From: Lumbricus terrestris
Lineage: Eukaryota; Annelida; Clitellata; Crassiclitellata; Lumbricidae
Assembly (NCBI GenBank): GCA_949752735.1
Contig: OX457047.1
Location: 6,638,266 to 6,702,265, forward strand
Length of the DNA: 64,000 nucleotides
Direction of reading: 5' to 3'
The notes below the pieces were generated by a model, which was not told where the DNA came from, did not search any database, and saw only the letters and a program-made list of their open reading frames with translations. Of this stretch, positions 1,197 to 59,820 are shown one piece after another. A program made the translations under genes and the position numbers. Numbering within the stretch: position 1 is the first letter of the stretch; each line of letters opens with the position of its first letter.

Positions 1197-1234
1197 TTAG
1201 ACACCTGTAAATCTATTTCTACGAGTTCTAGATA
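1197..1234 (+). promoter_or_regulatory. PSE/TATA-like promoter P1
   Basis: Core TTAGACACCTGTAA; 19 nt later a weak slot CTAGATA, with TATAAT one step beyond. It faces P2 across the same slot. Confidence 0.4.
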
Positions 1235-1263
1235 TAATCCCAATATTAAAGGCAGGCGTCTAA
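1226..1263 (-). promoter_or_regulatory. PSE/TATA-like promoter P2
   Basis: Core on - is TTAGACGCCTGC (one change), slot TCTAGAA. B1 lies downstream on the same strand. Confidence 0.35.
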
Positions 1264-1264
1264 A

Positions 1265-1490
1265 ATTTACTGTTTTTACAATTATTACACTGGACAACAA
1301 ATTTTTACAAAAGTCATGTTACTGAAATGAAATTAGTCAGTTCTTATCAATTTTTATGTGCTGAACACTAATATGACAGTGACATTGCTTAATTGGCTCT
1401 AGTTTTTTTGTAATCTCAAATGAAGTAATTTTATATCGCACAATGCATTCCAATAGTGATACACTTACGGTTAATATTTGTAAAAACCAG
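1265..1490. other. No gene seen
   Basis: AT-rich spacer between P2 and the transposon-like ORF. Confidence 0.6.
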
Positions 1491-1491
1491 G

Positions 1492-2757
1492 TCATAGACT
1501 AGTTCTTAGATTTTTTGCCTGTCTCTTGTACAGCTGTTCGGTAGCATCTCTGCGGAGTGTCCAGCAGTAGTCAGCCAACATTGTAGTGGACCATTTTCCC
1601 TGGTACCTTTGCTCCATTGTTGCAATATCTTGATGAAAGCGTTCGCCATGTTCGTCACTAACCATACCACAGTTGTCAGGGAAGAAATCCAGATGGGAGT
1701 GAAGGAAATGCATCTTCAGCGACATATTGCAGCGAAATTTCTGGTACTGCTTGAGCATGTCTTCTACTAGTTCCTTGTATTTTTCTGCCCTAACATTCCC
1801 CAGAAAGTCTATAGACACTAGACGAAAAGCATTCCATGTTTGTTTCGCATCACCCTCCAGCAAGTTGTTGAAGCGGTCATCTTTGAAAAGTTCTCTAATC
1901 TGAGGACCCACGAAAACTCCTTCTTTAATCTTTGCTTCGCCGAGTCGAGGGAATTTTTCATGCAGGTATCGGAAAGCTGGCGAAGTGCGGTCCATGGCTT
2001 TCACGAAGTTCTTCACCAAACCTAGTTTGATGTGAAGGGGTGGTAGTAGGATTTTGTGAGCCTCGACCAGAGCTGGGTGCTGGATATTCTTCTGTCCAAC
2101 TGCCATGTTTTGTCTGGGAGTCCATTCCTTCCGCAGGTAGTGCAACTCTCTTGCCCGACTATCCCACTCACACATATATTTTGTATATCCTTGCTGCAGT
2201 CCCATTAAAATGGCAACTACCTTCAAATCACCGCACAGGTGCCATTTGTACCTGTTATAGTCAATGTAATGCAGTAGCTGTTTTAGGTTATCGTATGTCT
2301 CTTTCATGTGGACAGCATGCGCTAATGGAATAGATGGAAGACGGTTTCCATTGTGCAAAAGCACAGCCTTAAGACTCAGTGTCAAAGAGTCTACAAAGAG
2401 TCTCCATTCTTGTGGGTCATGAGTGATCTGTAAGGCATTCATGAGGTCGTCAATATTGGAACAGAATACCAGATTACCTTCCTTCATGAAGAAAGGTTCC
2501 AACTGCTGATGGCGCTTTCTATATGAAGTGATTGTGACATCTTCTTCTAGAATATTCCATTGTTGGAGTCTTGATCCTAGCAACTCTGCCTTGTTTTTGG
2601 ATAAGTCCAAATCACGAACAAGGTCATTTAGTTCTTCCTGTGTTATTCTGTGTGGGGTTGATGATGCACCACAGTGAAAATCGGGATCACTGCATGCTGA
2701 CGGACCAGGAGAAGAACATGTCGGTTCACCCTTGTCCTCATCAGACTGGCTGTACTT
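1492..2757 (-). CDS. Transposon-like repeated protein, 372+ aa, 5' end open
   Basis: A 372-codon frame runs from the ATG at 2610 to a stop at 1492. The same frame stays open 49 codons further upstream, to 2757, with a plausible serine- and acid-rich N-terminal stretch, so this may be one exon or an N-truncated copy. I recall the family as dispersed multicopy uncharacterised proteins in hydra, aphids and other animals. Motifs that suggest it are W-x2-CGDLKVV (residues 123-132), GYTKY followed by EWDSRA (141-153), KFPRLGEAKIKEG (219-231), HFLHSHLDFF (301-310), SDEHGERFHQDI (318-329) and YQGKW..MLADYCW (336-350). The His/Asp/Glu-rich block could be a decayed nuclease core, but that is a guess. 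No terminal repeats were found nearby. Function is unknown; I think it is transposon-derived and probably not a host gene. Confidence 0.6.
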   Translation of the reverse strand, partial: KYSQSDEDKGEPTCSSPGPSACSDPDFHCGASSTPHRITQEELNDLVRDLDLSKNKAELLGSRLQQWNILEEDVTITSYRKRHQQLEPFFMKEGNLVFCSNIDDLMNALQITHDPQEWRLFVDSLTLSLKAVLLHNGNRLPSIPLAHAVHMKETYDNLKQLLHYIDYNRYKWHLCGDLKVVAILMGLQQGYTKYMCEWDSRARELHYLRKEWTPRQNMAVGQKNIQHPALVEAHKILLPPLHIKLGLVKNFVKAMDRTSPAFRYLHEKFPRLGEAKIKEGVFVGPQIRELFKDDRFNNLLEGDAKQTWNAFRLVSIDFLGNVRAEKYKELVEDMLKQYQKFRCNMSLKMHFLHSHLDFFPDNCGMVSDEHGERFHQDIATMEQRYQGKWSTTMLADYCWTLRRDATEQLYKRQAKNLRTSL

Positions 2758-3552
2758 TTACATTGCATCAGAAAATGACGTAATGAAAAATCAACTGTGC
2801 ATGATGTGTCCATGATGGGATTATGCAATGAGGTGGAATATTACATCATTCCATAGGCGCAACCACCTTATGGGACATACGGGACGCGTTCCCCAACTTT
2901 TGAGTGGTCCCCTAACTTTTTTTATTATGGTCCCTCAACTTTTAGGACGTGATTCATTATGGTCCCCTCCAACTTTTAGGACGTGATTGCACCTAAGCAT
3001 CATTCTAGACTTATTTAGGATATTGTCGCATTTCTACTGCGTAAATTTACATGGTGAAACATAAGAAATGAACTATATGAAATATTTTCAAAACGAGAGC
3101 CAACAAAAACTTTTTATGGTTATATTCGTGTTCAGCACACCAAGATGCTATACATTAGGGCCTTTTCCAGTCAGTAACGATTTCTATGTTGACCAGTGTT
3201 ATTGGTTAGCTGAACGCAAACAACTTTAGTAGCCACAAGAATTCGATAGTGGCCATATTTTTCAAGAAATGCTAAGTGTTTAAAAAGATAATGTGGCCTA
3301 ACTTTTCTATAAATGTTTAGAAATATTATGTGTGCCTTTGAATAGGAATCAACGTCAGCATCTTTAGCAGCCAAAAGATGACAATACTGGAAGAGATGGT
3401 TGATTGTCGTAATCTTCCAGTCTTGGTGGAGAGCGGTGTTAAGATGAGCGGGAACGGCTAAGTCTTCGGGGTCTTGTCGCTCCTCTCGGCACGTGGGTTA
3501 TCGTTTAATCGCACAGAGCACCCGACACAGTTTTGAATCTTTCTTGTATTGA
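2758..3552. other. No gene seen; short internal duplication
   Basis: Contains a roughly 30-bp near-duplication around 2920-2990 (TTATGGTCCC..CAACTTTTAGGACG twice). Otherwise unrecognised. Confidence 0.55.
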
Positions 3553-4978: not shown

Positions 4979-4979
4979 T

Positions 4980-5017
4980 ATAGACACCTTTAAAACGTTC
5001 TTAAAGTACCGTATTTA
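4980..5017 (+). promoter_or_regulatory. PSE/TATA-like promoter P3
   Basis: Core TATAGACACCTTTAAA, slot GTATTTA at 19 nt. A1 begins about 50 nt past the slot on the same strand. Confidence 0.6.
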
Positions 5018-5063
5018 TTTTTAACTTTCATCACAAACGCAAGTTGTAGATATATCGCAAGAA

Positions 5064-5158
5064 GAAAGCTCTTAAGTGTTGTAATATGCCGAGCAAATTT
5101 CTGTCCAGGGTAACGGCCTCTGTTGTCATAGACCCTGGTCAAATCGGATCCATCCATC
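5064..5158 (+). ncRNA. A-type hairpin element A1
   Basis: Full A element in transcript sense. It starts with GCTCTTAAGTGTTGTAATA, then GCCGAGCAAATTTCTGT. The hairpin is CCAGGGT..ACCCTGG around the conserved AACGGCCTCTGTTGTC, and the tail is GGATCCATCC. Promoter P3 precedes it. AAATTTCTGT just before the stem loosely resembles an Sm site. RNA status is inferred. Confidence 0.5.
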
Positions 5159-5198
5159 CATCTCAAACTCGTCCGGAAGATCATTTAGCGCAAACGTC

Positions 5199-5246: not shown

Positions 5247-5284
5247 TAAATAAGGTCGTTTAGTCACGTTTTAGAGGTGTCTAT
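5247..5284 (-). promoter_or_regulatory. PSE/TATA-like promoter P5
   Basis: Core TATAGACACCTCTAA, slot TTATTTA at 19 nt. It lies 48 bp from P4 and is co-oriented with it. Confidence 0.5.
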
Positions 5285-5289
5285 AGGAG

Positions 5290-6050
5290 CTACGAGACCA
5301 TTTGACATAATGTACTACATTAATTTTTTCAAAGGTTTGTGATATATTCTGATCAGCCAAATATTAAATTTTATCTTATTCGTTAGCACAGCAGTATCTG
5401 GATGACAAAGTGAGCGTTGTTGTCATGCATTAAACAGTATCTGCATGACAAAGTGAGCGTTGTTGTCATGCATAAGAAGAGTTTGCAGTGACTATAGGAG
5501 GAGTGCTTACCTTAGACCTTATAATCCTTCCACGCGCTGGTAGCACATCGGTCGACGCAGCTCCTCAGCACCACTCTGTCCTCCGTAATCCTCTCAGCTT
5601 CTTCCCACGTCAAATAACCTATATACTAAAAGAGTTTTTTTTAAATAGTATTGTTTAACTATAATTATAAATAGTATTAGTAAATATATTACTGGTGTTG
5701 TTGCGATTGTCGTTGCTATTATCTTTGCTGTTGTCGTTGCTACTATCTATGTTATTGTTGTCGATGTCGTCGTTGTTGTTGTTGTCATGTGTAGTCGTTC
5801 GATTATTTTCATATCTTTCCGTTCAATTTATTTAAATACAATCAACGCTGAAAACAATATTGATGGTAATTGCATTAATTCAATCAATCAAATAATCAAT
5901 CATTCAATTTATTGAGAAAGTGAGTTTGGGAAATAACGTCACTTTAAACTAAACAAGAACTATCTTGGTCACAAAAGGGAACCGAGAATTGACTGCAGAG
6001 TCCCGCTGGTTATGGCCACATATAATTATATATTTTCTGATGCTATTATG
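5290..6050. other. No gene; 43-bp tandem duplication
   Basis: A 43-bp period repeat at 5392-5475 holds GTGAGCGTTGTTGTCATGC twice. GTTGTC-type simple sequence runs at about 5690-5790. Confidence 0.6.
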
Positions 6051-6057
6051 ACATCAG

Positions 6058-6112
6058 AGTCCGTTACCCTGGACAGAAATTTGCTCGGCATATTTTACAG
6101 CACTTAAGATTT
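6058..6112 (-). ncRNA. A-type element A2, distal part lost
   Basis: In - sense it keeps CTTAAGTGCTG, GCCGAGCAAATTTCTGT and CCAGGGTAACGG, then diverges, so the 3' stem arm is gone. P6 lies about 30 nt upstream. Confidence 0.45.
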
Positions 6113-6141
6113 TTGATTTGTTGAATGTCGATAATACGACA

Positions 6142-6179
6142 TATATAATGAAGAAAATTTACATTAAAAAGGTGTTTAA
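6142..6179 (-). promoter_or_regulatory. PSE/TATA-like promoter P6
   Basis: Core TTTAAACACCTTTTT, slot TTATATA at exactly 19 nt. A2 is downstream. Confidence 0.65.
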
Positions 6180-9480: not shown

Positions 9481-9587
9481 TCCTTGCTCCTTAGATTTTT
9501 ACGTTTTTAGTTTGCAATCACCATAACATCGTCTTCGTCAGTAGTTTTTATAGACTGAGAAATACGATTCGTCAAAAAACTCCGCCA

Positions 9588-9692
9588 CTGGTTGCACTCT
9601 GTCAGTGCCAGTGCCAAACCTGGATAACGGAGAAGGGCGTCGCTAATGGCCTTTGTTACCACACAGTGACGTTAAATTGCAAATACCACTGC
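9588..9692 (+). other. B-type element B5, well preserved
   Basis: Near-consensus B: GGTTGCACTCTGTCAGTGCC, AAACCTGGATAACGGAG, GGGCGTCGCTAATGGCC, TTACCACACAGTGACGTTAAA. The last 38 bp are nearly identical to 18421-18458. Confidence 0.55.
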
Positions 9693-9725: not shown

Positions 9726-9763
9726 TTAAACACCTTTAAATTGATTTATTCATCGTCTATATA
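9726..9763 (+). promoter_or_regulatory. PSE/TATA-like promoter P8
   Basis: Core TTTTAAACACCTTTAA, slot CTATATA followed by AAA, at 19 nt. The nearest A element on this strand is A3, 390 nt on. Confidence 0.65.
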
Positions 9764-10262: not shown

Positions 10263-10378
10263 TGCAGTTTAAAGTCACTGTGTGAAATTAAAGACCACTA
10301 GAGTATTATACCCTCCTCCTCCTCTATCCAGACATGGGACTGGCACAGGCAGAACGCCACCAGTGGCGGAGATGAAAG
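10263..10378 (-). other. B-type element B6
   Basis: In + reading: CAGTTTAAAGTCACTGTGTG, CCCTCCTCCTCCTC, TATCCAGACATGGGACTGGC, ACCAGTGGCGG. Confidence 0.5.
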
Positions 10379-10538: not shown

Positions 10539-10576
10539 CTAAACACCTGTTTAACGTATACGCCTGATATTATTAT
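10539..10576 (+). promoter_or_regulatory. PSE/TATA-like promoter P9
   Basis: Core GCTAAACACCTGTTTAA, slot TTATTAT. A4 starts about 65 nt past the slot. Confidence 0.55.
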
Positions 10577-10641
10577 AACAACGCGCAACAGATTTTAGTA
10601 CATTGACCCTGAAAACCCACGACATCATAATCACAATCATT

Positions 10642-10736
10642 ACTGGTTCAGTACCTTGCTCTTAATTGCTGTAATATGCCGAGAAAATTTATGTCCAGGG
10701 TAACGGCCTCTGTTGTCAGAGACCCTAGTCAAATAA
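10642..10736 (+). ncRNA. A-type hairpin element A4
   Basis: ACTGGTTCAGTACCTTGCTC, then TGCTGTAATATGCCGAG, stem CCAGGGT..ACCCTAG (one C-A mismatch). The tail is cut after GTCAAAT. Confidence 0.5.
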
Positions 10737-12154: not shown

Positions 12155-12192
12155 TTGAACACCTTTAAGTCGTCTATTTATGCCATTGCCTA
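12155..12192 (+). promoter_or_regulatory. PSE-like core P10, TATA weak
   Basis: Core TTGAACACCTTTAAG. The slot is not TATA-like; P11 repeats the core 45 bp on. Confidence 0.35.
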
Positions 12193-12199: not shown

Positions 12200-12237
12200 T
12201 TGAACACCTTAAAGTCATTGGTTTCTTAGGCTATATA
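12200..12237 (+). promoter_or_regulatory. PSE/TATA-like promoter P11
   Basis: Core TTGAACACCTTAAAG (one T short), slot CTATATA at 19 nt. Downstream TTCATTTGGTGAATAGTAG resembles the sequence after P15. Confidence 0.6.
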
Positions 12238-14773: not shown

Positions 14774-14811
14774 TTAGACACCCGCAAATCACTTTATCAT
14801 AATGCTAGAAA
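14774..14811 (+). promoter_or_regulatory. PSE-like promoter P12
   Basis: Core TTAGACACCCGCAAA, slot CTAGAAA (weak, same type as P1 and P39). Confidence 0.4.
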
Positions 14812-15380: not shown

Positions 15381-15740
15381 TACTGCCACTGAAAACCCAA
15401 ATTAGGCATTACGCTATAATAAAATAGAAAGATGTAAAGAGAAAGCTGTTCAAAATGATATAGATTCCTTGTTGCCACAAGTTGTAGGGGAGGGTGTCCC
15501 AAGGTGCCCCAAGACAAGTTGTGACGATTCAGTTTTCTCGCCGTCGTTTTGCTCGTTTATTTCTTATTATCATTCAATTAATAGACGATAATCTAGTCTT
15601 TGTGTGAACGAGTTTCAGTCTCTGTGTTGACAACATCCGACTTGCAGGTAATCATTTCGCTTTCAGCTACTAATCTTACGATTTTCGATTTTAAGTAATC
15701 ACTGTACGGACTCATTTAGAGATGAATTGTGTTTGGTGGT

Positions 15741-15824
15741 GGATCCGATTTGACCAGGGTCTATGACAACAGAGGCCGATACCCTGGACAGAAATTTGCT
15801 CGGCGTATTACGGCACTTGAGAGC
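15741..15824 (-). ncRNA. A-type hairpin element A5
   Basis: Complete A in - sense with stem CCAGGGT..ACCCTGG and loop TATCGGCCTCTGTTGTC. P13 lies 41 nt upstream. Confidence 0.5.
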
Positions 15825-15864
15825 TTAAACGTTAATTAATTAGAACGTTGGTTATCATGAACCA

Positions 15865-15902
15865 ATTTATTGCGTCGGACAATGCGATTAAAAGGTGTAT
15901 AA
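15865..15902 (-). promoter_or_regulatory. PSE/TATA-like promoter P13
   Basis: Core TTATACACCTTTTAAT, slot AATAAAT at 19 nt. About 45 bp here match P14, including sequence on both sides of the core. Confidence 0.6.
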
Positions 15903-16484: not shown

Positions 16485-16522
16485 ACTTATTGCGTCGGAC
16501 AATACAATTAAAAGGTGTGTAA
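16485..16522 (-). promoter_or_regulatory. PSE/TATA-like promoter P14
   Basis: Core TTACACACCTTTTAAT, slot AATAAGT. Paralogue of P13. Confidence 0.55.
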
Positions 16523-16933: not shown

Positions 16934-16971
16934 TAGAACACCTTTAAGTCGTTAGTTTCTTAGGATATATA
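16934..16971 (+). promoter_or_regulatory. PSE/TATA-like promoter P15
   Basis: Core TTAGAACACCTTTAAG, slot ATATATA. Spacer GTCGTTAGTTTCTTAGG is close to that of P11, and so is the sequence that follows. Confidence 0.6.
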
Positions 16972-17383: not shown

Positions 17384-17421
17384 TTAAACACCTGCAAAAA
17401 TGACTTTTCTATTTTATTAAA
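17384..17421 (+). promoter_or_regulatory. PSE/TATA-like promoter P16
   Basis: Core TTAAACACCTGCAAAA, slot TATTAAA. A LINE fragment starts about 35 bp beyond. Confidence 0.5.
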
Positions 17422-18419: not shown

Positions 18420-18520
18420 TCTTTGTTACCACACAGTGACGTTAAATTGCAAATACTCATTCACTCCTATTCCTTTACCCAGGCTTGGGACAGGAACTGG
18501 CAGAGTGCAACCTGCATGAT
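18420..18520. other. B-type element B8, internally inverted
   Basis: Left half reads TTACCACACAGTGACGTTAAA (sense +), right half TTTACCCAGGCTTGGGACAGG (sense -). A7 and P17 lie to its right. Confidence 0.45.
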
Positions 18521-18521
18521 G

Positions 18522-18597
18522 TCCAGATTTGACGAGGGCCTATGACAACAGAGGCCGTTTACCTCGGAGCAAATTTGCTTAGCATAATACAGCTCTG
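18522..18597 (-). ncRNA. A-type hairpin element A7, variant stem
   Basis: In - sense: GAGCTGTATTATGC, then stem CGAGG..CCTCG around AACGGCCTCTGTTGTC. Same stem class as A3. Confidence 0.5.
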
Positions 18598-18613
18598 TGG
18601 CGAGGTTAAAGAA

Positions 18614-18651
18614 ATTTAGAGCCGTCTACCATTTGAATTAAAGGTGTGTAA
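18614..18651 (-). promoter_or_regulatory. PSE/TATA-like promoter P17
   Basis: Core TTACACACCTTTAAT, slot TCTAAAT. A7 then B8 follow on -. Confidence 0.55.
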
Positions 18652-19017: not shown

Positions 19018-19315
19018 GGTCGTTTCATTTCGATTCATGGACTGGTGTCGGCATAATCTACTTTTGAACGTGCAATCTTATTTGGTTGAAATGATCCCTG
19101 AATGCTCGTTGTTACCGGTTGCGGACACAAACTCTCCTTCCTTTTCCCGATTCTAAATCTATCTATTAGTTTTGTAATAACTAATGCAAGTTTGCCATCA
19201 CTCACTTTGCAAATAACTGCTATGTCCATATTGGAGATTGAAAATGTAGAGATTGCTGAAAATATATAAATATTACATGGTTTTCTAAAAACATTCTTCT
19301 GTGAATCTATTCCTA

Positions 19316-19422
19316 TGGATGGATCCGATTTGACCAGGGTCTATGACAACAGAGGCCGTTACCCTGGACAGAAATTTGCTCGGCGTATTACAGCTCTTAA
19401 GAGCAGAGTACTAGACCAGTTA
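19316..19422 (-). ncRNA. A-type hairpin element A8, full length
   Basis: In - sense: ACTGGTCTAGTACTCTGCTC, TTAAGAGCTGTAATACGCCG, AGCAAATTTCTGT, stem CCAGGGT..ACCCTGG, then GGATCCATCC. P18 is 65 nt upstream. Confidence 0.55.
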
Positions 19423-19485
19423 TGTCCGTCATTTCTCTTTTACGTTTTTGAAGACGTCAGTACGATTACGAAGCGAAACTGGAAA

Positions 19486-19523
19486 CTATATGAAGCCGTT
19501 TTACCGTATATAAAGGTGTGTTA
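19486..19523 (-). promoter_or_regulatory. PSE/TATA-like promoter P18
   Basis: Core TAACACACCTTTATA, slot CATATAG at 19 nt. Confidence 0.6.
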
Positions 19524-20691: not shown

Positions 20692-20752
20692 TAAGGCGCA
20701 TTAGCGTCGCTCTCCCTTTATTTCCAGGCTTGGGACTGGCACTTTCAAAGTG
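20692..20752 (-). other. B-type element B9
   Basis: In + reading GCATTAGCGTCGCTCTCCC, TTTCCAGGCTTGGGACTGGC. Confidence 0.5.
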
Positions 20753-20794
20753 CGAATAGTGGAAGAGAATATGGTTTGGATTTATGGACCTCGA

Positions 20795-20868: not shown

Positions 20869-20934
20869 ATGCGTGATAATCAACGCATTGCAAGCGCAGC
20901 TGGAAATTCAATCTTAGACAGATATTGGACCGAT

Positions 20935-21005
20935 CCAGATATTATGACGAGGGCTTATGACAACAGAGGCCGTTCACCTAAAAAAAGTAATGCATAATAC
21001 AGGTT
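20935..21005 (-). ncRNA. A-type element A9, stem weakened
   Basis: ACGAGGGCTTATGACAACAG keeps the loop and 3' arm; the 5' arm has decayed. P19 is 40 nt upstream, and B9 lies beyond it. Confidence 0.4.
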
Positions 21006-21042
21006 TTTGCAGATATTTGCAGATATTGAACCGAAATACTTT

Positions 21043-21080
21043 ATTTATAGCAAAGTATAATTCAATATAAAGGCATGTTA
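21043..21080 (-). promoter_or_regulatory. PSE/TATA-like promoter P19
   Basis: Core ATAACATGCCTTT (variant), slot TATAAAT. The order P19, A9, B9 is kept. Confidence 0.5.
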
Positions 21081-21490: not shown

Positions 21491-21528
21491 TTTTATGCGT
21501 CAGTTGAAACCTTACTAAAGGTGTATAA
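21491..21528 (-). promoter_or_regulatory. PSE/TATA-like promoter P20
   Basis: Core GTTATACACCTTTAG, slot CATAAAA. Confidence 0.5.
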
Positions 21529-22461: not shown

Positions 22462-22499
22462 TAAATAGCGTTGTTTATAACCAATTTGAAGGTGTTTAA
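22462..22499 (-). promoter_or_regulatory. PSE/TATA-like promoter P22
   Basis: Core ATTAAACACCTTCAA, slot CTATTTA at 19 nt. No A or B within 300 nt downstream. Confidence 0.6.
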
Positions 22500-23189: not shown

Positions 23190-23227
23190 TTAGACACCTG
23201 GAAATCGTTTATTTAATTAACTATAGA
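23190..23227 (+). promoter_or_regulatory. PSE/TATA-like promoter P23
   Basis: Core CTTAGACACCTGGAAA, slot CTATAGA at 19 nt. Confidence 0.6.
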
Positions 23228-24168: not shown

Positions 24169-24206
24169 TTAGACACCTTTAAGTTATAGATCAATAAACT
24201 ATAATA
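24169..24206 (+). promoter_or_regulatory. PSE/TATA-like promoter P25
   Basis: Consensus core TTAGACACCTTTAAG, slot TATAATA. Confidence 0.65.
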
Positions 24207-25051: not shown

Positions 25052-25089
25052 TTAGACACCTTTAAGTTATTGCTATTAAAAATATATAC
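25052..25089 (+). promoter_or_regulatory. PSE/TATA-like promoter P26
   Basis: Core TTAGACACCTTTAAG, slot TATATAC. The core is identical to P25. Confidence 0.65.
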
Positions 25090-25679: not shown

Positions 25680-26140
25680 TAGCGCCCTTTCCTTCGACCT
25701 TCGTTCGGCGCTCTAAATAGCATCCCTTTATTTTATTATATTTTTTTAAATTTATTCTCAAATTGATGGGTTGACCGTATTTAAGCGGTCTCTCCTACAT
25801 AGCAAGGGCTTACTAGGGAATAACCTATGCCAGAGGCCCGGCAGGGTATGCTCTATGACTAGCATTAAGGAATACTATAAAACTGGTAGACTACATAGTC
25901 ATTAAGAATAAACTTACTCTAAGTCTAACAGTACATAATTATTATTGTCTCACTTTGACCTTACCCATAATACCGACAAGCAATAATACCTCAGATTTTC
26001 TGATGGTTATAATAGGGTCTGTTTGACGCACTAAAGAAGTATCTAACGAGATCAACAAAATGACGAGTGTTTAGCTCAATTTACGGCAGAAAGAACTTTT
26101 GAATTTGAACGTAAACGTGCCCTGCTATTTTGCCTAATTA
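25680..26140. other. No gene seen
   Basis: AT-rich; CTTTCCTTCGACCTTCGTTC at about 25690 has a diverged relative at about 26430. Confidence 0.5.
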
Positions 26141-26869: not shown

Positions 26870-26907
26870 TTACACACCTCTTATATATTGATCAACTAAA
26901 TTATATA
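26870..26907 (+). promoter_or_regulatory. PSE/TATA-like promoter P28
   Basis: Core ATTACACACCTCTTAT, slot TTATATA at 19 nt. B10 lies about 265 nt on. Confidence 0.6.
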
Positions 26908-28453: not shown

Positions 28454-28491
28454 TATATAGCAATGTTGAAGTTCGCTTTAAAGGGGTTTAA
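28454..28491 (-). promoter_or_regulatory. PSE/TATA-like promoter P30
   Basis: Core TTTAAACCCCTTTAAA (A to C change), slot CTATATA at 19 nt. Confidence 0.55.
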
Positions 28492-29388: not shown

Positions 29389-29426
29389 TAAGACACCTTT
29401 TAATTGGTGACATACATTTTATAAAT
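29389..29426 (+). promoter_or_regulatory. PSE/TATA-like promoter P31
   Basis: Core CTAAGACACCTTTTAA, slot TATAAAT. Confidence 0.6.
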
Positions 29427-32070: not shown

Positions 32071-32108
32071 TTACACACCTTTTAAATGGTTTAAACTGCT
32101 GCTATAAT
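32071..32108 (+). promoter_or_regulatory. PSE/TATA-like promoter P32
   Basis: Core TTACACACCTTTTAA, slot CTATAAT at 19 nt. Confidence 0.6.
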
Positions 32109-34999: not shown

Positions 35000-35037
35000 C
35001 TATATTACCTCGAAGTCATCAGTTTGAAGGTGTTCAA
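35000..35037 (-). promoter_or_regulatory. PSE/TATA-like promoter P33
   Basis: Core CTTGAACACCTTCAA, slot AATATAG at 19 nt. Confidence 0.6.
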
Positions 35038-36298: not shown

Positions 36299-36336
36299 TT
36301 AGACACCTTTAATTTGTTTAAGAAGAGGTCTTAGCT
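36299..36336 (+). promoter_or_regulatory. PSE-like core P34, TATA displaced
   Basis: Consensus core TTAGACACCTTTAAT. No TATA at 19 nt; TTATAG lies at 36344, just before the LINE fragment. Confidence 0.4.
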
Positions 36337-37324: not shown

Positions 37325-37362
37325 TTTATAAAACCAAAACTAACATATTTGAAGGTGTCTAA
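37325..37362 (-). promoter_or_regulatory. PSE/TATA-like promoter P35
   Basis: Core ATTTAGACACCTTCAA, slot TTATAAA at 19 nt. The LINE fragment lies where an A element would be expected. Confidence 0.6.
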
Positions 37363-38267: not shown

Positions 38268-38365
38268 TTTATTGTCACTGTGTGGTAACAAAGTCCATTA
38301 AGCGATGCCCTCCTTCTTTATCCAGGCTTGGGACTGGCACTGGCAGAGTTCAACCAGCGTCGGAG
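38268..38365 (-). other. B-type element B14, well preserved
   Basis: In + reading TTGTCACTGTGTGGTAACA, AAGTCCATTAAGCGATGCCC, TATCCAGGCTTGGGACTGGC, ACTGGCAGAGTTCAACCAGC. P36 begins 9 bp to its right. Confidence 0.55.
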
Positions 38366-38373
38366 TTAATGTG

Positions 38374-38411
38374 CGATTGGCTACGTAAAAAATGATTTCA
38401 AAGGTGTTTTA
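38374..38411 (-). promoter_or_regulatory. PSE-like core P36, no TATA
   Basis: Core ATAAAACACCTTTG; slot CCAATCG. B14 follows at once, so no A fits between. Confidence 0.4.
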
Positions 38412-38867: not shown

Positions 38868-38907
38868 TTAGACACCTTTAAAACGGTTAAAATTATTGCT
38901 TTTATAC
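38868..38907 (+). promoter_or_regulatory. PSE/TATA-like promoter P37
   Basis: Core TTAGACACCTTTAAAA, TTTATAC at 20-21 nt. Embedded in the unclassified repeat; the copy at 54410 lacks this part. Confidence 0.55.
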
Positions 38908-40912: not shown

Positions 40913-41302
40913 CTGTTGACTACTGCAAAGTGGTGCTCCCGTGCGATGTGGACTCCATGCAAACAATTTCTATTGACCATGATATTATACATTTTGCTCA
41001 ATCCGCAACGACACTAAATTCAAACATTTTCTTTGCTTATAATTATAGTGAGTCTGCTATGACTTATGACGATCGAAGGATTTTTTGAAACGCAGAGTTA
41101 GTGTCTTAAGAAAGTATACTAATATATTGGCTTCGGGGAACGCGATGCAAAGGTGAATAAACCAAATCATAATTAATTAGTTTCCCGATTATCATTGCTT
41201 AACAACGTCTTTGACCGCCAAGCAAAAGCTATTGACACCGATCTCAATGTAAAGTTTAGGAGAGGAAACCGTTCCAGACAAGTGAAAAACTTACTAATAT
41301 TT

Positions 41303-41340
41303 TTATATAGCATCGGTATATACGAAATAAAGGTATCTAA
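41303..41340 (-). promoter_or_regulatory. PSE/TATA-like promoter P38
   Basis: Core CTTAGATACCTTTAT (one change), slot TATATAA. Confidence 0.5.
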
Positions 41341-41598
41341 GCAGATAAAAATTGCATTGTAAATTATTATGTAGAAGCCGTTTACGTTTCCTCCATGTAG
41401 GCCCACATCTTAGAAGGCTATAAGATAAGATAAGAATAGTCTTTAATGGACCAATTGTATCCGCATTTTGGTATACAGGCATGTTATAATAAGCAAACGT
41501 GCATCATTTCTATATCCATTCAATGCCAAAATGTAATGTTTTAAAATAGCACAAAATCCAAAAATCAATATAAATATGTTAATCAATACAAATAAATA

Positions 41599-41692
41599 GC
41601 TGCTCTTAAGTGCTGCAATACGCCGAGCAAATTTCTCTCCAGGGTAACGGCCTCTGTTGTCACAGACCCTGGTCAAATCGTATCCATCCACC
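41599..41692 (+). ncRNA. A-type hairpin element A10, promoter missing
   Basis: GCTCTTAAGTGCTGCAATAC, GCCGAGCAAATTTCTCT, stem CCAGGGT..ACCCTGG, tail ATCCATCC. A GATAAGATAAG LINE-type tail at 41420 lies where a promoter might have been. Confidence 0.45.
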
Positions 41693-41792
41693 AAATATGT
41701 TACAGCGGAATTTGGGACTAGCCTATTGATCAGTGACGTTGGTAGTGGGCAGGATTATCACACACTTGTCACTCCTCCTTTATACTGGTTTA

Positions 41793-41905
41793 GGATGGAT
41801 GCATCCGATTTGACCAGGGTCTATGACAACAGAGGCCGTTACCCTGGACAGAAATTTGCTCGGCATATTACAGCACTTAAGAGCAAGGTACTGAACCAGG
41901 TCACG
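41793..41905 (-). ncRNA. A-type hairpin element A11, full length
   Basis: In - sense ACCTGGTTCAGTACCTTGC, TCTTAAGTGCTGTAATATGC, AGCAAATTTCTGT, stem CCAGGGT..ACCCTGG. A diverged B-like CACTCCTCCTTTATACTGG is at 41766. P39 is 34 nt upstream. Confidence 0.55.
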
Positions 41906-41938: not shown

Positions 41939-41976
41939 GATCTAGAATGTGATGCGCAGAAATAAAAGGTGTGTCC
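41939..41976 (-). promoter_or_regulatory. PSE-like promoter P39
   Basis: Core GGACACACCTTTTAT, slot CTAGATC (weak). Drives toward A11. Confidence 0.45.
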
Positions 41977-42772: not shown

Positions 42773-42810
42773 ATTTATTTCATTTATATATTCGTAAAAG
42801 AGGTGTTTAA
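42773..42810 (-). promoter_or_regulatory. PSE/TATA-like promoter P40
   Basis: Core CTTAAACACCTCT, slot AATAAAT. Confidence 0.5.
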
Positions 42811-43548: not shown

Positions 43549-43586
43549 TTTATTAAGCCAGGAGAACCTGATTTTGAGGTGTGCAA
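43549..43586 (-). promoter_or_regulatory. PSE/TATA-like promoter P41
   Basis: Core GTTGCACACCTCAA, slot TAATAAA at 19 nt. The block at 43337 lies 100 nt downstream. Confidence 0.45.
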
Positions 43587-44685: not shown

Positions 44686-45048
<363 letters not shown>

Positions 45049-45153: not shown

Positions 45154-45191
45154 TTTATTGTGATGATAGACTCTTATTTAGGGGTGTCTAA
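45154..45191 (-). promoter_or_regulatory. PSE/TATA-like promoter P42
   Basis: Core TATTAGACACCCCTA, slot CAATAAA. Confidence 0.5.
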
Positions 45192-46245: not shown

Positions 46246-46437
46246 ACGTGGCTAAACTTAGATACAACAGCTTGAAGTGATCTTTGAAGCCATCTTCCGA
46301 AAACTCACGATTTCCGACATAACTCGTTATTGCTCCAAGACCTTCAATGGTAATCTGCATAGAGACCTTTATATCGTATTTTACGATGCCTATTAGTTAG
46401 TTTTTATCTGTTTGCCCAGACTAACTTCAGCACCTGC

Positions 46438-47213: not shown

Positions 47214-47251
47214 TTAAACACCTTTAAATGAGGTGAAACTTAAGCTATATA
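47214..47251 (+). promoter_or_regulatory. PSE/TATA-like promoter P43
   Basis: Core TTAAACACCTTTAAA, slot CTATATA at 19 nt, one of the best matches. Confidence 0.65.
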
Positions 47252-47421: not shown

Positions 47422-47459
47422 GCAATCGCATGTTTCAACAACGTTGTGAAGGTGTATAA
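47422..47459 (-). promoter_or_regulatory. PSE-like core P44, no TATA
   Basis: Core ATTTATACACCTTC; the slot is not AT-rich. Confidence 0.25.
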
Positions 47460-47555
47460 ATTGAAAGCCCTAGGATTACACTTATTTGTAGCAGTCACAA
47501 ATTCTTATAATCGTGCTATTTCGAAACGTTTAAAAGGTATTTTGACAGTAGTCCT

Positions 47556-47593: not shown

Positions 47594-47627
47594 AGAGTTT
47601 CTCACTTCCAATCAGTAGAATCAGCAC

Positions 47628-47712
47628 AAATTGAAATCGATTAACTTACAGCCATCATCAATGCTTATATTATAAGCATTGATGATGGCTGTAAGTTAAT
47701 CGATTTCAATTT
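47628..47712. repeat. Perfect palindrome, 42-bp arms, 1-nt centre
   Basis: Arms 47628-47669 and 47671-47712 are exact reverse complements by eye. The similarity continues outward with one mismatch (GCA-C-AAATT vs AATTT-C-TGC). Confidence 0.95.
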
Positions 47713-47716
47713 CTGC

Positions 47717-47754
47717 TAAGACACCTCTAAAGCATTTTTCAATAAAATATAAAA
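47717..47754 (+). promoter_or_regulatory. PSE/TATA-like promoter P46
   Basis: Core CTAAGACACCTCTAAA, slot TATAAAA. Starts 5 bp after the palindrome; P47 faces it 110 bp on. Confidence 0.6.
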
Positions 47755-47827: not shown

Positions 47828-47865
47828 AATATAGGGCAATTTGGTAATGGTTTATAGGTGTCTAA
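47828..47865 (-). promoter_or_regulatory. PSE/TATA-like promoter P47
   Basis: Core TTTAGACACCTATA, slot CTATATT. Convergent with P46. Confidence 0.6.
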
Positions 47866-48170: not shown

Positions 48171-48208
48171 TTGCACACCTCCATAACAGGTTTAACGAAT
48201 GCTATATA
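48171..48208 (+). promoter_or_regulatory. PSE/TATA-like promoter P48
   Basis: Core TTGCACACCTCCATAA, slot CTATATA followed by AAA, at 19 nt. A dead LINE follows. Confidence 0.5.
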
Positions 48209-49710: not shown

Positions 49711-49748
49711 AAGAAATTCATCTTACAGCCGACAGCAGGGGTGTATAA
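49711..49748 (-). promoter_or_regulatory. PSE-like core P49, weak
   Basis: Core ATTTATACACCCCT; no TATA. In tandem 35 bp from P50. Confidence 0.25.
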
Positions 49749-49783
49749 ATAGCATTTTCCCCCTATGTTTTAAGGGTGTCTAA
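49746..49783 (-). promoter_or_regulatory. PSE/TATA-like promoter P50
   Basis: Core TATTAGACACCCTTA, slot CTATTTA at 19 nt. The slot overlaps the P49 core. Confidence 0.5.
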
Positions 49784-50717: not shown

Positions 50718-50755
50718 CTTATATCATTCGTCGGAAGTGATTTGCAGGTGTCTAC
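50718..50755 (-). promoter_or_regulatory. PSE/TATA-like promoter P51
   Basis: Core CGTAGACACCTGCA, slot ATATAAG. Confidence 0.5.
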
Positions 50756-51998: not shown

Positions 51999-52036
51999 CT
52001 AAACACCTTTAATATGCAAGCATCAGATACTATTCA
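51999..52036 (+). promoter_or_regulatory. PSE/TATA-like promoter P52
   Basis: Core CTAAACACCTTTAA, slot CTATTCA. A LINE separates it from B18. Confidence 0.5.
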
Positions 52037-53164: not shown

Positions 53165-53282
53165 GATTAATTAACTCCGCCACTGGTTGCACTCTGCAAG
53201 TGCCAGTCCCACGTCTGAATAAAGGGGGAGGGCGTCGCTAATGGTCTCTGTTACCACACAGTGACTTTAAGGAACTGTCAAC
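53165..53282 (+). other. B-type element B18, well preserved
   Basis: ACTCCGCCACTGGTTGCACT, GCAAGTGCCAGTCCCACG, GAGGGCGTCGCTAATGG, TTACCACACAGTGACTTTAA. Confidence 0.55.
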
Positions 53283-54145: not shown

Positions 54146-54183
54146 TATATAGTAAGAGTTGATCAGGTTTAATAGGTGTTTAA
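54146..54183 (-). promoter_or_regulatory. PSE/TATA-like promoter P53
   Basis: Core CTTAAACACCTAT, slot CTATATA at 19 nt. Tandem with P54, 86 bp apart. Confidence 0.6.
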
Positions 54184-54231: not shown

Positions 54232-54269
54232 TATATAGCACCGTGTGACAACGTTATAAAAGTGTCTAA
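54232..54269 (-). promoter_or_regulatory. PSE/TATA-like promoter P54
   Basis: Core CTTAGACACTTTT (one change), slot CTATATA at 19 nt. Confidence 0.55.
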
Positions 54270-55205: not shown

Positions 55206-55243
55206 TTAGACACCTCAGAATAGGTTGATGATCATGTTATATT
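55206..55243 (+). promoter_or_regulatory. PSE/TATA-like promoter P55
   Basis: Core TTAGACACCTCAGAA, slot TTATATT. Confidence 0.55.
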
Positions 55244-55510: not shown

Positions 55511-55548
55511 CAAGACACCTTTTAATTTTATTCTACGATGCAATATAG
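55511..55548 (+). promoter_or_regulatory. PSE/TATA-like promoter P56
   Basis: Core CAAGACACCTTTTAA, slot AATATAG at 19 nt. No A or B follows before 56 kb. Confidence 0.55.
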
Positions 55549-55549: not shown

Positions 55550-56085
55550 TAATGTTTTCGCAAAATTGTTTCAATTATCAAATTGCCTTTCATTTCTCAA
55601 TCTCCATAATTTTGACGCTTTATATTTACACAGGTGGGATTAGTTGGTGCAAGCATCTTGTTTCCATGCAATGATGGCTCTAGGCCTAATTTGTCAACAC
55701 AAGCGAAAATTGAAATTTCATAAAGAAAAGATCAGCAATCGCTAAATTGAAAGAAAATCGGTGCGAAATAGTTCTCAAAATATCTATTAACTTTTTGATT
55801 GAAGTTTTAATTTCCTAAAGAAATAATTAATTAATTAATTGCTCATTAGACGGGTTATCGCAAGGTAGATTGCAAAACTTCTTAATTAATTAGTGACACA
55901 GGAACTGTTGTGCTTCGTTGAACGCTTGTGCCATTAATGTTTTTGACTTTCTTCCAATTTAAGATCAAATTGTACCTGGACTGATCCAGATTTCAAATCG
56001 GTAAACACGAAATTAAATATTGTTCTGAAAAATAAACTTGTCTAAAGCTTATTGTTACTAGAGGGACGCAGGTGAAAAATTAAGG
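55550..56085. other. No gene seen
   Basis: AT-rich spacer. Confidence 0.5.
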
Positions 56086-56091
56086 AATTGG

Positions 56092-56195
56092 ATGGATCCG
56101 ATTTGACCAAGGTCTATGACAACAGAGGTCGTTACCCTGGACAGAAATTTGCTTGGCGTATTACAGCACTTAACAGCAAGGTACTAGACCAGTTT
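56092..56195 (-). ncRNA. A-type hairpin element A14, wobble pair
   Basis: Stem CCAGGGT..ACCTTGG, where a G-C pair has become G-U and pairing is kept. ACTGGTCTAGTACCTTGC at its start. P57 is 33 nt upstream. Confidence 0.55.
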
Positions 56196-56227
56196 TTTGT
56201 AATTAAGGAATTAAGCGCGTTTGCCAA

Positions 56228-56265
56228 ATATACAACAAAGTTGACAACATTTTAAAGGTGTCGTA
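56228..56265 (-). promoter_or_regulatory. PSE/TATA-like promoter P57
   Basis: Core TACGACACCTTTAA, slot TGTATAT. Confidence 0.5.
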
Positions 56266-56500: not shown

Positions 56501-56505
56501 ACAAC

Positions 56506-59114
56506 CAGTGGCGGATCCAGAACGTTTCGAAGGGGGGGGCCAAAAAATTTTGGGGCTGGGGTCGGAAATTTTTTTGTTGATCTTTCGCTGGAAATCTGAT
56601 TAACTATTTTAGTCGTTTTTGGCGGAACCAGAGTTTAATTTAGCCCTCACCTCAAGGGGGATTGAGGTTTCCGGAGGGTTACATAATTCACCGTCTTAAG
56701 ACAATCATGAGGCGCGCAGCGCCGAGAGTGGTAGGGGAGGGGTGTGGGGAGGGGATATGCCCCTCCCCACCAGAAACTTTTTGAATTTTCACATTGCAAT
56801 GGTAGCATTTTAAGCTGTTCTCTTAACAAAATAGCTGTACTTTTCAGTGCTTATAAGAGTGCCATAAGATCTCAATAAAATTAATATTGACTTTACTTAA
56901 AAACTTCTTTCCCGAAAACTAGATTTTTTTAAGTAATCCGCCGGAAATCTTCAAAAAGGGTGTTCAATTTTCCTTCCCAAAAAACCGATGACATTTTTTG
57001 ATCATCCGTGCGAAATCTTAAAAGAGGTGTTTAATTTTTCGTCTAAAAAGAGTGATATGACTTTTTAGTCTTTCGTGCGAAATTTTTAAAAAAAGGTGTT
57101 TAATTTCGCATCCCAAAAAACTGATGACTTTTTGTAGTCATCTGTGCTAAATCTTAAAAAAGGTGTTTAATTTTTCGTCTAAAAAGAGTGATGACTTTTT
57201 ATTCTTCAGTGTGAAATTTTCAAAAAAGGGTGTTCAATTTAGCATCCCAATAAACTGATAACTTTTTGTAGTCATCCGTGCTAAATCTTTAAAAAAGGTG
57301 TTTAATTTTTCGTCTAAAAAGAGTGATGACGTTTTAGTCTTCCGTGCGAAATTTTCAAAAAAAGGTGTTCAATTTAGCATCGCAAAAAACTGATAACTTT
57401 TTGTAGTCATGCGTGCGAAATCTTAAAAAAGGTGTTTAATTGTTCGTCTAATAAGAGTGATGACGTTTTAGTCTTCCGTGCGAAATTTTCAAAAAAGGTG
57501 TTTAATTTCGCATCCCAAAAACTAATGACTTTTTGTAGTCATCCGTGCTAAATCTTTAAAAAAGGTGTTTAATTTTTCGTCTAAAAAGAGTGATGACTTT
57601 TTATTCTTTCGTGCGAAATTTTCAAAAAAGGTGTTTAATTTAGCATCCCAAAAAACTGATGACTTTTTGTAGTCATGTGTGCGAAATCTTAAAAAAGGTG
57701 TTTAATTTTTCGTCTAAAAAGAGTGATGACTTTTTATTCTTCAGTGTGAAATTTTCAAAAAAGCGTGTTCAATTTAGCATCGCAAAAAACTGATAACTTT
57801 TTGTAGTCATGCGTGCGAAATCTTTAAAAAAGGTGTTTAATTTTTCGTCTAAAAAGAGTGATGACGTTTTAGTCTTCCGTGCGAAATTTTCAAAAAAAGG
57901 TGTTCAATTTAGCATCGCAAAAAACTGATAACTTTTTGTAGTCATGCGTGCGAAATCTTAAAAAAGGTGTTTAATTGTTCGTGTAATAAGAGTGATGACG
58001 TTTTAGTCTTCCGTGCGAAATTTTCAAAAAAGGTGTTTAATTTCGCATCCCAAAAACTAATGACTTTTGTAGTCATCCGTGCTAAATCTTTAAAAAAGGT
58101 GTTTAATTTTTCGTCTAAAAAGAGTGATGACTTTTTATTCTTTCGTGCGAAATTTTCAAATAAGGTGTTTAATTTAGCATCCCAAAAAACTGATGACTTT
58201 TTGTAGTCATCTGTGCTAAATCTTAAAAAAGGTGTTTAATTTTTTGTCTAGAAAGAGTGATGACTTTTTATTCCTCCGTGCGAAATTTTCAAAAAAAGGT
58301 GTTCAATTTAGCATCCCAATAAACTGATGACTTTTTGTAGTCATCCGTGCGAAATCTTAAAAAAGGTGTTTAATTTTTCGTCTAAAAAGAGTGATGACCT
58401 TTTACTCTTCCGTGCGAAATTTTCAAAAAAAGGTGTTCAATTTAGCATCGCAAAAAACTGATAACTTTTTGTAGTCATGCGTGCGAAATCTTAAAAAAGG
58501 TGTTTAATTTTTCGTCTAAAAAGAGTGATGACGTTTTAAGGCTAAAATAAATAAAATACTCCCACTGCTGAATGAAATATAGTAAGATATAAATAAAAAC
58601 AAGGAGTAAACATGTGTTATCATTCACCGCACTTTCTTGCACATGTAGACTACACTAAAAACTTAACATGTTTCGCCCTGAAATTTTTTGGCATCTGCAA
58701 AAAATAAATTACATCCCAAACACTGTTGTTCGTGTTAACTTGATTTGTAATTAATAGTTAGTTGTACTTAGTTATACTTGTGTTTATTTGTGTTAATGTT
58801 TTTAAAATTTACTACGAATATATACACGATTGACTTACATTGTATGCCATAAATCATAGTTGGATACTGTTATAAGATTGTTTCATTTCGTTGCTTTATA
58901 TTAAGACAATGCAATTGCGTGAGAGACTTAGATTACATTTATATATATTATTTCTATTATAGATTTTAATTACATTTATACATTAATTCTCCTGTGCATG
59001 ACTGACACCCTGATTTTTTTTTTCGTCCACCATGAATGGGGGGGGCCACGTCCCATGGTGATTTGAAATGGGGGGGGCCATGGCCGGATTGGCCCCCCCC
59101 TGGATCCGCCCCTG
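56506..59114. mobile_element. Non-auton. hAT-type element, 2.6 kb, with array
   Basis: Ends CAGTGGCGGATCCAG and CTGGATCCGCCCCTG. The target duplication ACTACAAC lies at 56498-56505 and 59115-59122. Same family as 43637-44033 (shared GGCCAATCCGGCCATGGCCC near one end). Most of the interior is a tandem array. No transposase frame. Confidence 0.85.
56935..58540. repeat. Higher-order tandem array
   Basis: Two alternating units of about 67 bp form a dimer of about 133 bp. One has AATTTTTCGTCTAAAAAGAG, the other AATTTAGCATCCCAAAAAAC. The variant TTCGTCTAATAAGAGTG at 57443 recurs at 57975, so four dimers (about 532 bp) form a higher-order repeat. Each first unit opens with AAAGGTGTTTAA, the PSE core in the - sense, but no TATA word lies 19 nt away. 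Confidence 0.9.
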
Positions 59115-59518
59115 ACTACAACTACAACTACTACTGCCACAATTGTTGGCTGTGATAAACTTCCATTCACGGGTTATGTTATATCAACCTGATATTAGGG
59201 GAGTTTGCATTGCACTCTGGTGATTATACACTAAGCATGCAAGCTGTTTTTTACATGACTTATCAAAAGTCACTGCGAATGATATTCTGCATGACTGTCA
59301 CAGTGGGATAGAGTTCCGAAATACGTTTATTATCATTGCATCCTTGTAAATATTGTATTTCTTAATTGCTAGTGTTTGTTTGTTATTCGTTGCCAGTTCT
59401 TGGAAGGCTGCGAAAGGTGGCGATTAATAAAATAAGAAATCGATTCGCAGTTATTGAATTTTAAAGATTAAATTTGTTAATAATGATTTCTGAAAGTCAA
59501 CTGTAATTATTATGCATC

Positions 59519-59589
59519 TAAAAAGTAAATTCTGTCGTTGACAACGGCCTCTGTTGTCAAAACCTGTCGTTAGACCTTCGATCCATCCA
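59519..59589 (+). ncRNA. A-type element A15, inner stem only
   Basis: GACAACGGCCTCTGTTGTC forms a perfect 6-bp inner hairpin; the outer stem is lost. Tail GATCCATCC. B19 follows 30 nt on; no promoter found. Confidence 0.4.
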
Positions 59590-59619
59590 GCAAAAAATTA
59601 GCGCACCCGAGAGCCACTG

Positions 59620-59690
59620 TTAGTAAAGGCCAGTCAAAAGGTTGGATGAAGGAGGAGAGCGACGACAATGCACCTTGCTATCATACTGCA
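59620..59690 (+). other. B-type element B19
   Basis: AAAGGCCAGTCAAAAGG, GAAGGAGGAGAGCGACGAC. Confidence 0.45.
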
Positions 59691-59782
59691 TGCATGTTCT
59701 TTGTAGTAACTAACCATCGGCCACTGAGAATAAACTTACTAGCTTGGGTTATTCCAGAGAAACGATAACGATTTCCTCAAAT

Positions 59783-59820
59783 TTAGACACCGCTTTTAAG
59801 TTTGATATTTTAAAAATAAA
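59783..59820 (+). promoter_or_regulatory. PSE/TATA-like promoter P58
   Basis: Core TTAGACACCGCTTTTAA, slot AAATAAA. B20 lies 130 nt on. Confidence 0.45.

Follow-up and report, generated by a model that had tools for sequence, protein, structure and literature searches.

The window analysed here, a 64-kb stretch of earthworm DNA, carries on both strands a dense population of two-part motifs, each consisting of a PSE-type word followed by a TATA-like box, and this motif is genuine and above chance. The exact word ACACCTTTAA occurs 12 times (10 on the plus and 2 on the minus strand), every time outside the 57-kb array (satellite, 56944..58538), compared with 0, 0, 3, 1 and 0 occurrences in five order-3 Markov simulations, in agreement with the excess of this 10-mer reported in the initial annotation. 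With up to one mismatch it was found 36 times outside the array versus 6-19 times in the simulations, and with up to two mismatches 137 times in the whole window, array included; simulations that left the array out gave 95-110, and looser matching to ACACCTTTAA is accordingly mainly background. The TATA box was checked without bias on 33 core-only sites (no more than one mismatch to the core word, excluding the array as well as three copies of a single repeat): exact TATAWA was present at +25..+32 in 9 of these, against 0.6 expected. Offsets such as +27/28 are counted from the A of ACACC.

Sites were modelled using a two-block weight matrix, which was seeded from the core word alone and trained on the same window; an earlier, free-running refinement of the matrix was given up after straying into AT-rich sequence. 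The matrix gave 58 sites at a threshold where 1 false positive is expected and 64 where 5 are expected. Removal of the repeat copies at 4159, 13439 and 7668, of 24132 (overlapping with 24173) and of eight sites scoring below 15.4 left 52 non-redundant sites, 25 on the plus and 27 on the minus strand, close to the roughly 58 (28 and 30) counted previously. The TATA box starts 27-28 nt past the A of ACACC, equivalent to 17-18 nt past the ACACCTTTAA word, near the spacing of about 19 nt first proposed. Chance AT-rich words as the source of the motif are ruled out by the simulations, the core-only TATA check and the out-of-sample and genome-wide counts given below.

The PSE-TATA sites on the plus strand, with their matrix scores, are +1201 (1197..1234, score 25.8), +9730 (9726..9763, 30.9), +12159 (12155..12192, 16.5), +12204 (12200..12237, 21.6), +14778 (14774..14811, 20.5), +16938 (16934..16971, 21.7), +17388 (17384..17421, 19.0), +23194 (23190..23227, 25.3), +24173 (24169..24206, 22.4), +25056 (25052..25089, 20.7), +26874 (26870..26907, 20.0), +29393 (29389..29426, 23.5), +32075 (32071..32108, 28.4), +38872 (38868..38905, 28.9), +46363 (46359..46396, 21.6), +47218 (47214..47251, 27.8), +47721 (47717..47754, 21.4), +48175 (48171..48208, 22.5), +52003 (51999..52036, 22.8), +55210 (55206..55243, 21.2), +55515 (55511..55548, 18.4) and +59787 (59783..59820, 15.7). 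Those on the minus strand are -5280 (5247..5284, 22.3), -16518 (16485..16522, 24.4), -21524 (21491..21528, 19.0), -22495 (22462..22499, 27.4), -26042 (26009..26046, 15.5), -28487 (28454..28491, 22.5), -35033 (35000..35037, 17.7), -37358 (37325..37362, 23.8), -41156 (41123..41160, 17.4), -41336 (41303..41340, 21.3), -42806 (42773..42810, 19.7), -43582 (43549..43586, 21.0), -45187 (45154..45191, 20.8), -47455 (47422..47459, 18.9), -47540 (47507..47544, 17.9), -47861 (47828..47865, 20.8), -49779 (49746..49783, 24.4), -50751 (50718..50755, 21.9), -54179 (54146..54183, 21.6) and -54265 (54232..54269, 24.2). Sites adjoining element A, and two without a TATA box in place, are described further on. 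The satellite has a 67/134-bp unit with the PSE word on the minus strand and the TATA mostly out of place; it yields 23 PSE-model hits above 5, the best scoring 18.9, with a median of 18.9 for the minus-strand sites.

Promoter architecture and downstream sequence

The same PSE word lies upstream of U snRNA genes of this genome, namely 9 of 10 fetched U1 genes, 12 of 14 fetched U2 genes and, by matrix, 4 of 7 high-scoring U6 genes with 2 more recognized by eye, which supports the SNAPc-type reading of the initial annotation, for which an unrelated PSE in these genes would have been fatal. Box position distinguishes the classes. The T of the cluster TATA lies at +27/28 in 84 of 101 sites (range allowed, +26..+35), as does the second box in all 12 PSE-bearing U2 genes; the four PSE-bearing U6 genes have their TATA at +33..+35, 5-8 nt further downstream than the cluster. 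U1 boxes are weak and scattered over +22..+30, and U1 therefore lends weaker support to Pol II snRNA-type spacing. The TATA had been taken as a Pol III feature; at a distance like that of U2 (less clearly U1) and not U6, it is no sign of Pol III, and by TATA position the cluster sites fit promoters of Pol II snRNA type. The cluster shares with U1 and U2 the PSE, the box distance (clearest in U2) and the expected start distance, and differs from them in its stronger box (TATATAA), in having no known RNA body and in the 3' half of the PSE, which reads TTTAAAWCG in the cluster versus TTTTTATT or TTTATTT in U1/U2. With U6 it has in common the 5' half of the PSE and the presence of a TATA box.

On the favoured reading, each site would be a core promoter of SNAPc type, spaced as in Pol II snRNA genes: a TTARACACCTTTAAAWCGTTT-like PSE, about 21 bp long, is followed by a GCTATATAA-like box whose T stands 27-28 nt downstream of the ACACC A, and transcription would be expected to start 57-58 nt past that A, as in U1 and U2 of the same genome. 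The alternative that these are type-3 (U6-like) promoters producing many short Pol III RNAs is unlikely: it is favoured by the clear TATA box and by a first look in which the first downstream TTTT seemed late (median 152 vs 94), and opposed by the TATA position; in a later test on 46 sites, neither TTTT depletion nor a terminator pattern differed significantly from random places.

Around this fixed word and spacing, the flanks and downstream sequences of the window sites are mostly unrelated, as the initial annotation had described. At the expected start no initiator (YR or YRNT) was present in 101 sites, the A/T bias at +58 was weak, and neither an upstream DSE nor a downstream 3' box was found at the sites. 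Two downstream candidates were rejected: a TTGTCAAA-like motif, apparently enriched relative to 6 controls, was reached by 1-2 of 30 controls, and TAATAATT was not significant once corrected for multiple testing. Nothing was found to support structured RNA products: the window gave no Rfam match at gathering level and, element A and other repeats aside, no common downstream body was found among the sites. The same two results speak against the idea that a single family of structured RNA genes, of snRNA or snoRNA kind, has expanded over a long time and that its bodies have diverged beyond recognition; we consider this highly improbable, the point in its favour being that some neighbouring tandem copies (L016 and L002), read by eye, have common downstream sequence. 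Sites -15898 and -16518 are 89% alike over -17..+37, the promoter module alone being common to both.

Element A at the expected transcription start

Element A is a short, SINE-like repeat with an ATCC-type tail, variable 5' ends and target site duplications (TSDs), as expected of a retroelement mobilized by TPRT. Among 17 tested model hits in the window (21 listed minus the four weakest), 9 have an upstream site in sense, and at the same score none has a site on the other strand; the remaining 8 have no upstream site, which counts against targeting. Clear TSDs, all within +42..+60, were seen in four of the nine PSE-linked copies: 5054..5167 (plus strand, nhmmer 6.7e-37) downstream of +4984 (4980..5017, score 20.5; TSD +45..+54, one mismatch); the diverged copy 20934..21017 (minus, 5e-11) at -21076 (21043..21080, 16.1; TSD +42..+56); 41784..41903 (minus, 6e-37) at the weak site -41972, which is outside the 52 (41939..41976, 12.2; TSD +48..+60); and 56079..56196 (minus, 2.2e-34) at -56261 (56228..56265, 19.4; TSD +49..+60). 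The other five, without clear TSDs, are 10639..10734 (plus, 2.7e-28) downstream of +10543 (10539..10576, 22.2), 6046..6120 (minus, 1.4e-20) of -6175 (6142..6179, 22.4), 15726..15840 (minus, 3e-34) of -15898 (15865..15902, 24.0), the diverged 18517..18621 (minus, 2.1e-26) of -18647 (18614..18651, 17.6) and 19302..19423 (minus, 3.2e-38) of -19519 (19486..19523, 20.9). The copy at 41579..41707 (plus) has its own TSD and no upstream PSE site. The TSD placement at the expected start has a permutation p of 0.00035 over the nine copies.

Genome-wide, the exact word ACACCTT precedes element A in sense at start-site distance 247+223 = 470 times; at a distant gap the count is 53, and in antisense it is 15. 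The 53 indicate that part of the 470 is due to local density of the PSE word, and the 18-mer of element A has as many as 2,032 copies; both points weigh against targeting, as do the copies without an upstream word below. Of five copies from the similarity list, two have a PSE-like word upstream (9.2 and 12.1) and three do not, and of four more at fetched loci (L004, L014, L015, L050) three have one (17.2, 7.6, 19.3) and one does not. Judged from this placement, many sites carry a sense insertion of element A at their predicted start. When direct repeats of any kind were sought at +38..+75 of 53 sites, they were no more frequent there than at other offsets, so element A alone is shown as inserted there.

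That the motif itself derives from a transposon family, as its terminus or as a fragment carried along, has very little to recommend it. A look-alike does occur in the three copies of one repeat (4159, 13439, 7668) and element A adjoins many sites. Against this, the sites have mostly unrelated flanks and no paired terminal orientation, spacers between site and element are unrelated even though A copies are 92-98% alike, TSDs part A from the promoter in four copies, and the PSE is common to U1, U2 and U6; no sign of a transposon end was found, and transposon terminus was rejected as the identity of the motif. Mobile elements whose insertion is linked to small-RNA genes or to the promoters of such genes are familiar from the yeast Ty3 and Dictyostelium TRE elements and, in excerpts of the literature on them, from Utopia and Dada; element A differs from all four in being short and SINE-like and in lying, in sense, where many unrelated units are expected to start, not inside one conserved gene. 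Landing at the start of snRNA-type promoters would be a form of targeting new for a retroelement, and the presence of element A there suggests that the promoters are accessible in cells passing on DNA.

Chromosomal domains and comparison with nematode piRNA loci

An out-of-sample scan of the contig of the window (C13; matrix score >15) was run on 10-kb pieces: the eight at 4.5-8.5 Mb together contained 39 sites, one of the eight having none, and the twelve elsewhere contained 1. Across the genome, where the initial annotation had proposed such a scan, the strict pattern TTARACACCTTTAAN{14,24}TATAWA has 720+1040 = 1,760 matches (overlapping TATA ends being counted more than once) versus 7+4 = 11 for the backward pattern; a further genome-wide count gave 119 versus 0. 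Among the matches listed, the places are chiefly in megabase domains toward chromosome ends, with many domains on many chromosomes, and the window is part of these domains of snRNA-type promoters, each facing different DNA.

A rather unlikely explanation is that promoter modules or SNAPc-binding sequences have spread by local duplication with no useful product, forming a noise or selfish promoter array. Pairs alike in the promoter module alone, tandem pairs, the PSE-bearing satellite and the lack of a conserved transcript are all in keeping with it; PSE and spacing that stay fixed while flanks have decayed, the very large number of sites and the insertion of element A at the predicted start, suggesting accessible sites, are not.

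We favour, with a probability of about 0.55, the reading that the sites are thousands of independent SNAPc/Pol II genes for short non-coding RNAs, working like nematode type-I piRNA loci, membership of that class not being claimed. Each promoter in the megabase domains would make its own short transcript, unrelated and freely varying in sequence, and the likeliest role would be a one-promoter-per-small-RNA system. Occupancy by SNAPc and Pol II, and the output, length and function of the RNAs, we infer from the DNA; the domains have the look of a small-RNA factory, with many products, of a kind not described before.

To our knowledge, nematode piRNA loci are the sole described case of snRNA promoters turned into thousands of single small-RNA genes. 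In excerpts of two studies, type-I (21U) loci comprise thousands of independent promoters on both strands, whose motif is akin to the SNAPc element of snRNA genes, and which show megabase domains and unrelated downstream sequences (PMC6436959, PMC11262695), and the Pol II loci have no TATA box (PMC6436959). The earthworm cluster resembles them in its very many independent SNAPc-related promoters, megabase domains, use of both strands and unrelated downstream sequence, and differs in its phylum, its many domains on many chromosomes, its full PSE with a TATA-like box, the absence of a YRNT initiator and in being known from DNA sequence alone. The TATA present and YRNT absent depart from two nematode type-I features and are counted against the proposed explanation, as are the lack of a DSE and a 3' box among the sites, the weak and scattered U1 boxes, and excerpts describing the piRNAs of Capitella (PMC8915122) and earthworm (PMC6085071) as ordinary transposon- or locus-derived. 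No published report of an annelid system of this kind was found among the matches listed.

A broader scenario, which we consider less likely than not, is that snRNA promoters gave rise in an annelid, independently of nematodes, to a similar system with one promoter per small RNA. It would number some ten thousand SNAPc/Pol II units or more, grouped in megabase domains toward chromosome ends, and would be parasitised by a SINE that has no evident promoter; this SINE would insert in sense at the starts, use the host promoter for its transcription and take along a 5' leader from its parent locus. If true, the earthworm would provide another phylum with a case of its own, the origin of such systems would become open to testing, and much of these chromosomes that is otherwise obscure would be explained.

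Two sites without a TATA in place adjoin other elements: +36303 (36299..36336, score 24.6) leads into a reverse-transcriptase ORF fragment, and about 35 nt downstream of -38407 (38374..38411, 17.5) a twister element begins. Viral-contig and genome-contig searches gave no matches for element A, twister element B or two reverse transcriptases. The PSE word lies 40-70 nt upstream of element B at 94 places in the genome, a raw count, and many of these places are equal in length and so may represent one repeat subfamily.

Promoter-like sites in the window

The initial annotation described a dense set of promoters with a PSE followed by a TATA-like box, and its count of the core word was reproduced: the window contains 12 exact copies of ACACCTTTAA (10 +, 2 -) versus 0-3 in five order-3 Markov simulations. 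With at most one mismatch there are 36 occurrences outside the 67/134-bp satellite array at 56944-58538, versus 6-19 simulated, and with two mismatches 137 (array included) versus 95-110, the two-mismatch matches being mostly background. Counting from the A of ACACC, an exact TATAWA lies at +25 to +32 in 9 of 33 core-only sites, versus 0.6 expected. A two-block weight matrix (PSE and TATA blocks) trained on the window output 64 sites, of which 12 were removed (three copies of one repeat, one overlap and eight low scorers), leaving 52 (25 +, 27 -). The repeat, at 4159 (+), 13439 (+) and 7668 (-), combines a PSE look-alike with a GTTGTCAAAAGACAAC hairpin, its three copies being 87-97% alike over 450 bp. 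In the array units a - strand PSE word reaches full matrix strength (23 hits >5, best 18.9), mostly without a TATA in place.

As had also been claimed, the sequences around the sites are for the most part unrelated, and some close pairs have the promoter module alone in common. No significant common motif was found up- or downstream of the sites, no initiator at the expected start (+57/58) and, downstream, no Pol III terminator pattern that reached significance; an Rfam search gave no match at gathering level, and +58 carries a weak A/T bias (80/101 sites). A dispersed repeat, TATAGCGCC...CTCAGAGGCGCTCCC, lies about 80-260 nt downstream of sites 17388, 47721, 25056 and 16518.

snRNA-type promoters arranged in domains

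The PSE is common to 9/10 U1, 12/14 U2 and 4/7 U6 genes checked in the same genome. In the nine U1 genes the A of ACACC stands 57-58 nt upstream of +1 (search confined to 45-70 nt); a wider search scored best at that position in 8/10, and the U1 boxes are weak and spread over +22 to +30. Twelve U2 genes have ACACCTTTT 55-58 nt upstream of +1, each with the T of its best box at +27/28; the two exceptions were sampled from a tandem array on contig C9 and have ACTACCCCGATTTTC upstream instead of a PSE. Many U2 matches are concentrated at C9:29.54-29.81 Mb. Four U6 genes have ACACC 60 nt upstream of +1, and the T of their TATA lies at +33 to +35; by eye, two others have weaker ACACC look-alikes and one has none. 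The TATA T of the cluster sites (n=101, +26 to +35 allowed) falls at +27 in 21 and at +28 in 63, and their spacing therefore matches the Pol II gene U2 rather than U6.

Genome-wide counts were taken over an assembly of 331 contigs and 1,056,305,194 bases, in which the window is C13:6638266-6702265; PMC10799228 describes the Lumbricus terrestris assembly as 1,056.5 Mb in 18 pseudomolecules. The pattern TTARACACCTTTAAN{14,24}TATAWA gave 1,760 matches versus 11 when reversed, in line with the motif's proposed non-random occurrence, and a narrower form 119 versus 0. Among the matches listed for both strict patterns, the main places include C1 1.7-7.0 Mb (of 98.9), C4 3-9 and 69-76 Mb, C6 64-65 Mb (of 69.6), C8 4-14 Mb (of 61.7), C10 53-54 Mb (of 55.8), C13 5.8-8.2 and 42-45 Mb (of 46.9), C14 8-12 and 38-46 Mb, and C15 4.8-8.7 and 33-43 Mb (of 46.3), with strays at C2 12.3 Mb, C4 33.5 Mb and C13 0.9 Mb. 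A contig end is at most 14 Mb away, a loose bound on shorter contigs, for 49/49 narrow-pattern places on contigs of known size, drawn from 90 unique places among the matches listed. Out-of-sample 10-kb pieces of C13 held 7, 4, 8 and 7 sites at 4.5, 5.5, 6.0 and 6.4 Mb and 4, 3, 0 and 6 at 6.8, 7.2, 7.7 and 8.5 Mb; the remaining twelve pieces (0.5 to 40 Mb) held 1 altogether. The sites are snRNA-type promoters with Pol II-like spacing, arranged in domains. Scaled by the ratio seen over 144 kb, 4 strict sites to 91 model sites, a very uncertain factor, the genome total would reach an order of magnitude of ten thousand or more.

Element A at the predicted starts

Element A is a SINE-like repeat ~110 bp long; it has an ATCC-type tail and contains a stem, one pair of which is altered on both sides in 4/14 sequences and another in 1. 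A sense site lies upstream of A in 9/17 model hits tested, the weakest scoring 7.5, versus 0/17 on the opposite strand at equal score. Clear target-site duplications (TSDs) were seen in four of these nine copies, at +45..+54 and +42..+56 (one mismatch each), +48..+60 and +49..+60, and in none of the other five; for TSD position in the nine copies, permutation p = 0.00035. Genome-wide, an exact A 18-mer occurs 2,032 times, preceded by sense ACACCTT in 247 cases at a gap of 40-69 and 223 at 70-100, versus controls of 53 (sense, 170-200) and 15 (antisense, 70-100); the median distance is 76.5 (quartiles 67 and 82) for 200 matches among those listed. Of the 100 first-listed A copies, which reach 41 Mb of C1, 85 lie in the PSE domain at 1.7-7.4 Mb. 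By TSD positions, sense gap counts and domain placement, A therefore tends to lie, in sense orientation, at or just past the expected start, and start positions are marked by this retroelement. In some copies 8 to about 20 nt of unrelated sequence separates the TSD from the A body, which may be a 5' leader derived from the parent locus's promoter. All five U6 matches fetched from C14 (L036-L040) are U6 fragments fused to antisense A with the ATCC-type tail kept, probably a template-switch chimera later multiplied.

Possible products and other features

We infer that each promoter would produce its own short RNA. The same logic is found in nematode type-I piRNA genes, for which PMC6436959 describes a motif derived from that of SNAPc and Pol II loci that lack a TATA box; the earthworm sites may, by analogy, work like them. 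They have a TATA-like box and lack YRNT, however, and are therefore not filed as members of the nematode class. Earthworm piRNAs are reported as 29-30 nt and biased to 5'-U (PMC6085071), and a phylum-wide system is somewhat disfavoured because the piRNA loci of the annelid Capitella, as presented in PMC8915122, are ordinary.

Five type-P1 twister ribozyme matches (E 3e-8 to 0.8, all under the Rfam gathering score) lie at 38303-38372 (-), 53168-53237 (+), 9573-9642 (+), 10310-10378 (-) and 20705-20771 (-), within element B, a dispersed repeat that also has more diverged copies; at one fetched locus (L006) a B copy begins about 55 nt past a PSE. A sub-gathering MIR8706 match at 47624-47716 (+) (E 1e-8, 55.8 bits versus a cut-off of 95) adjoins an inverted duplication between sites +47721 and -47861. 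The 421-aa ORF at 1492-2757 (-), which has no Pfam match and 2,689 relatives, one protein being 97% identical, likely encodes a mobile-element protein. About 120 almost perfect tandem ATG units occupy 44686-45044.
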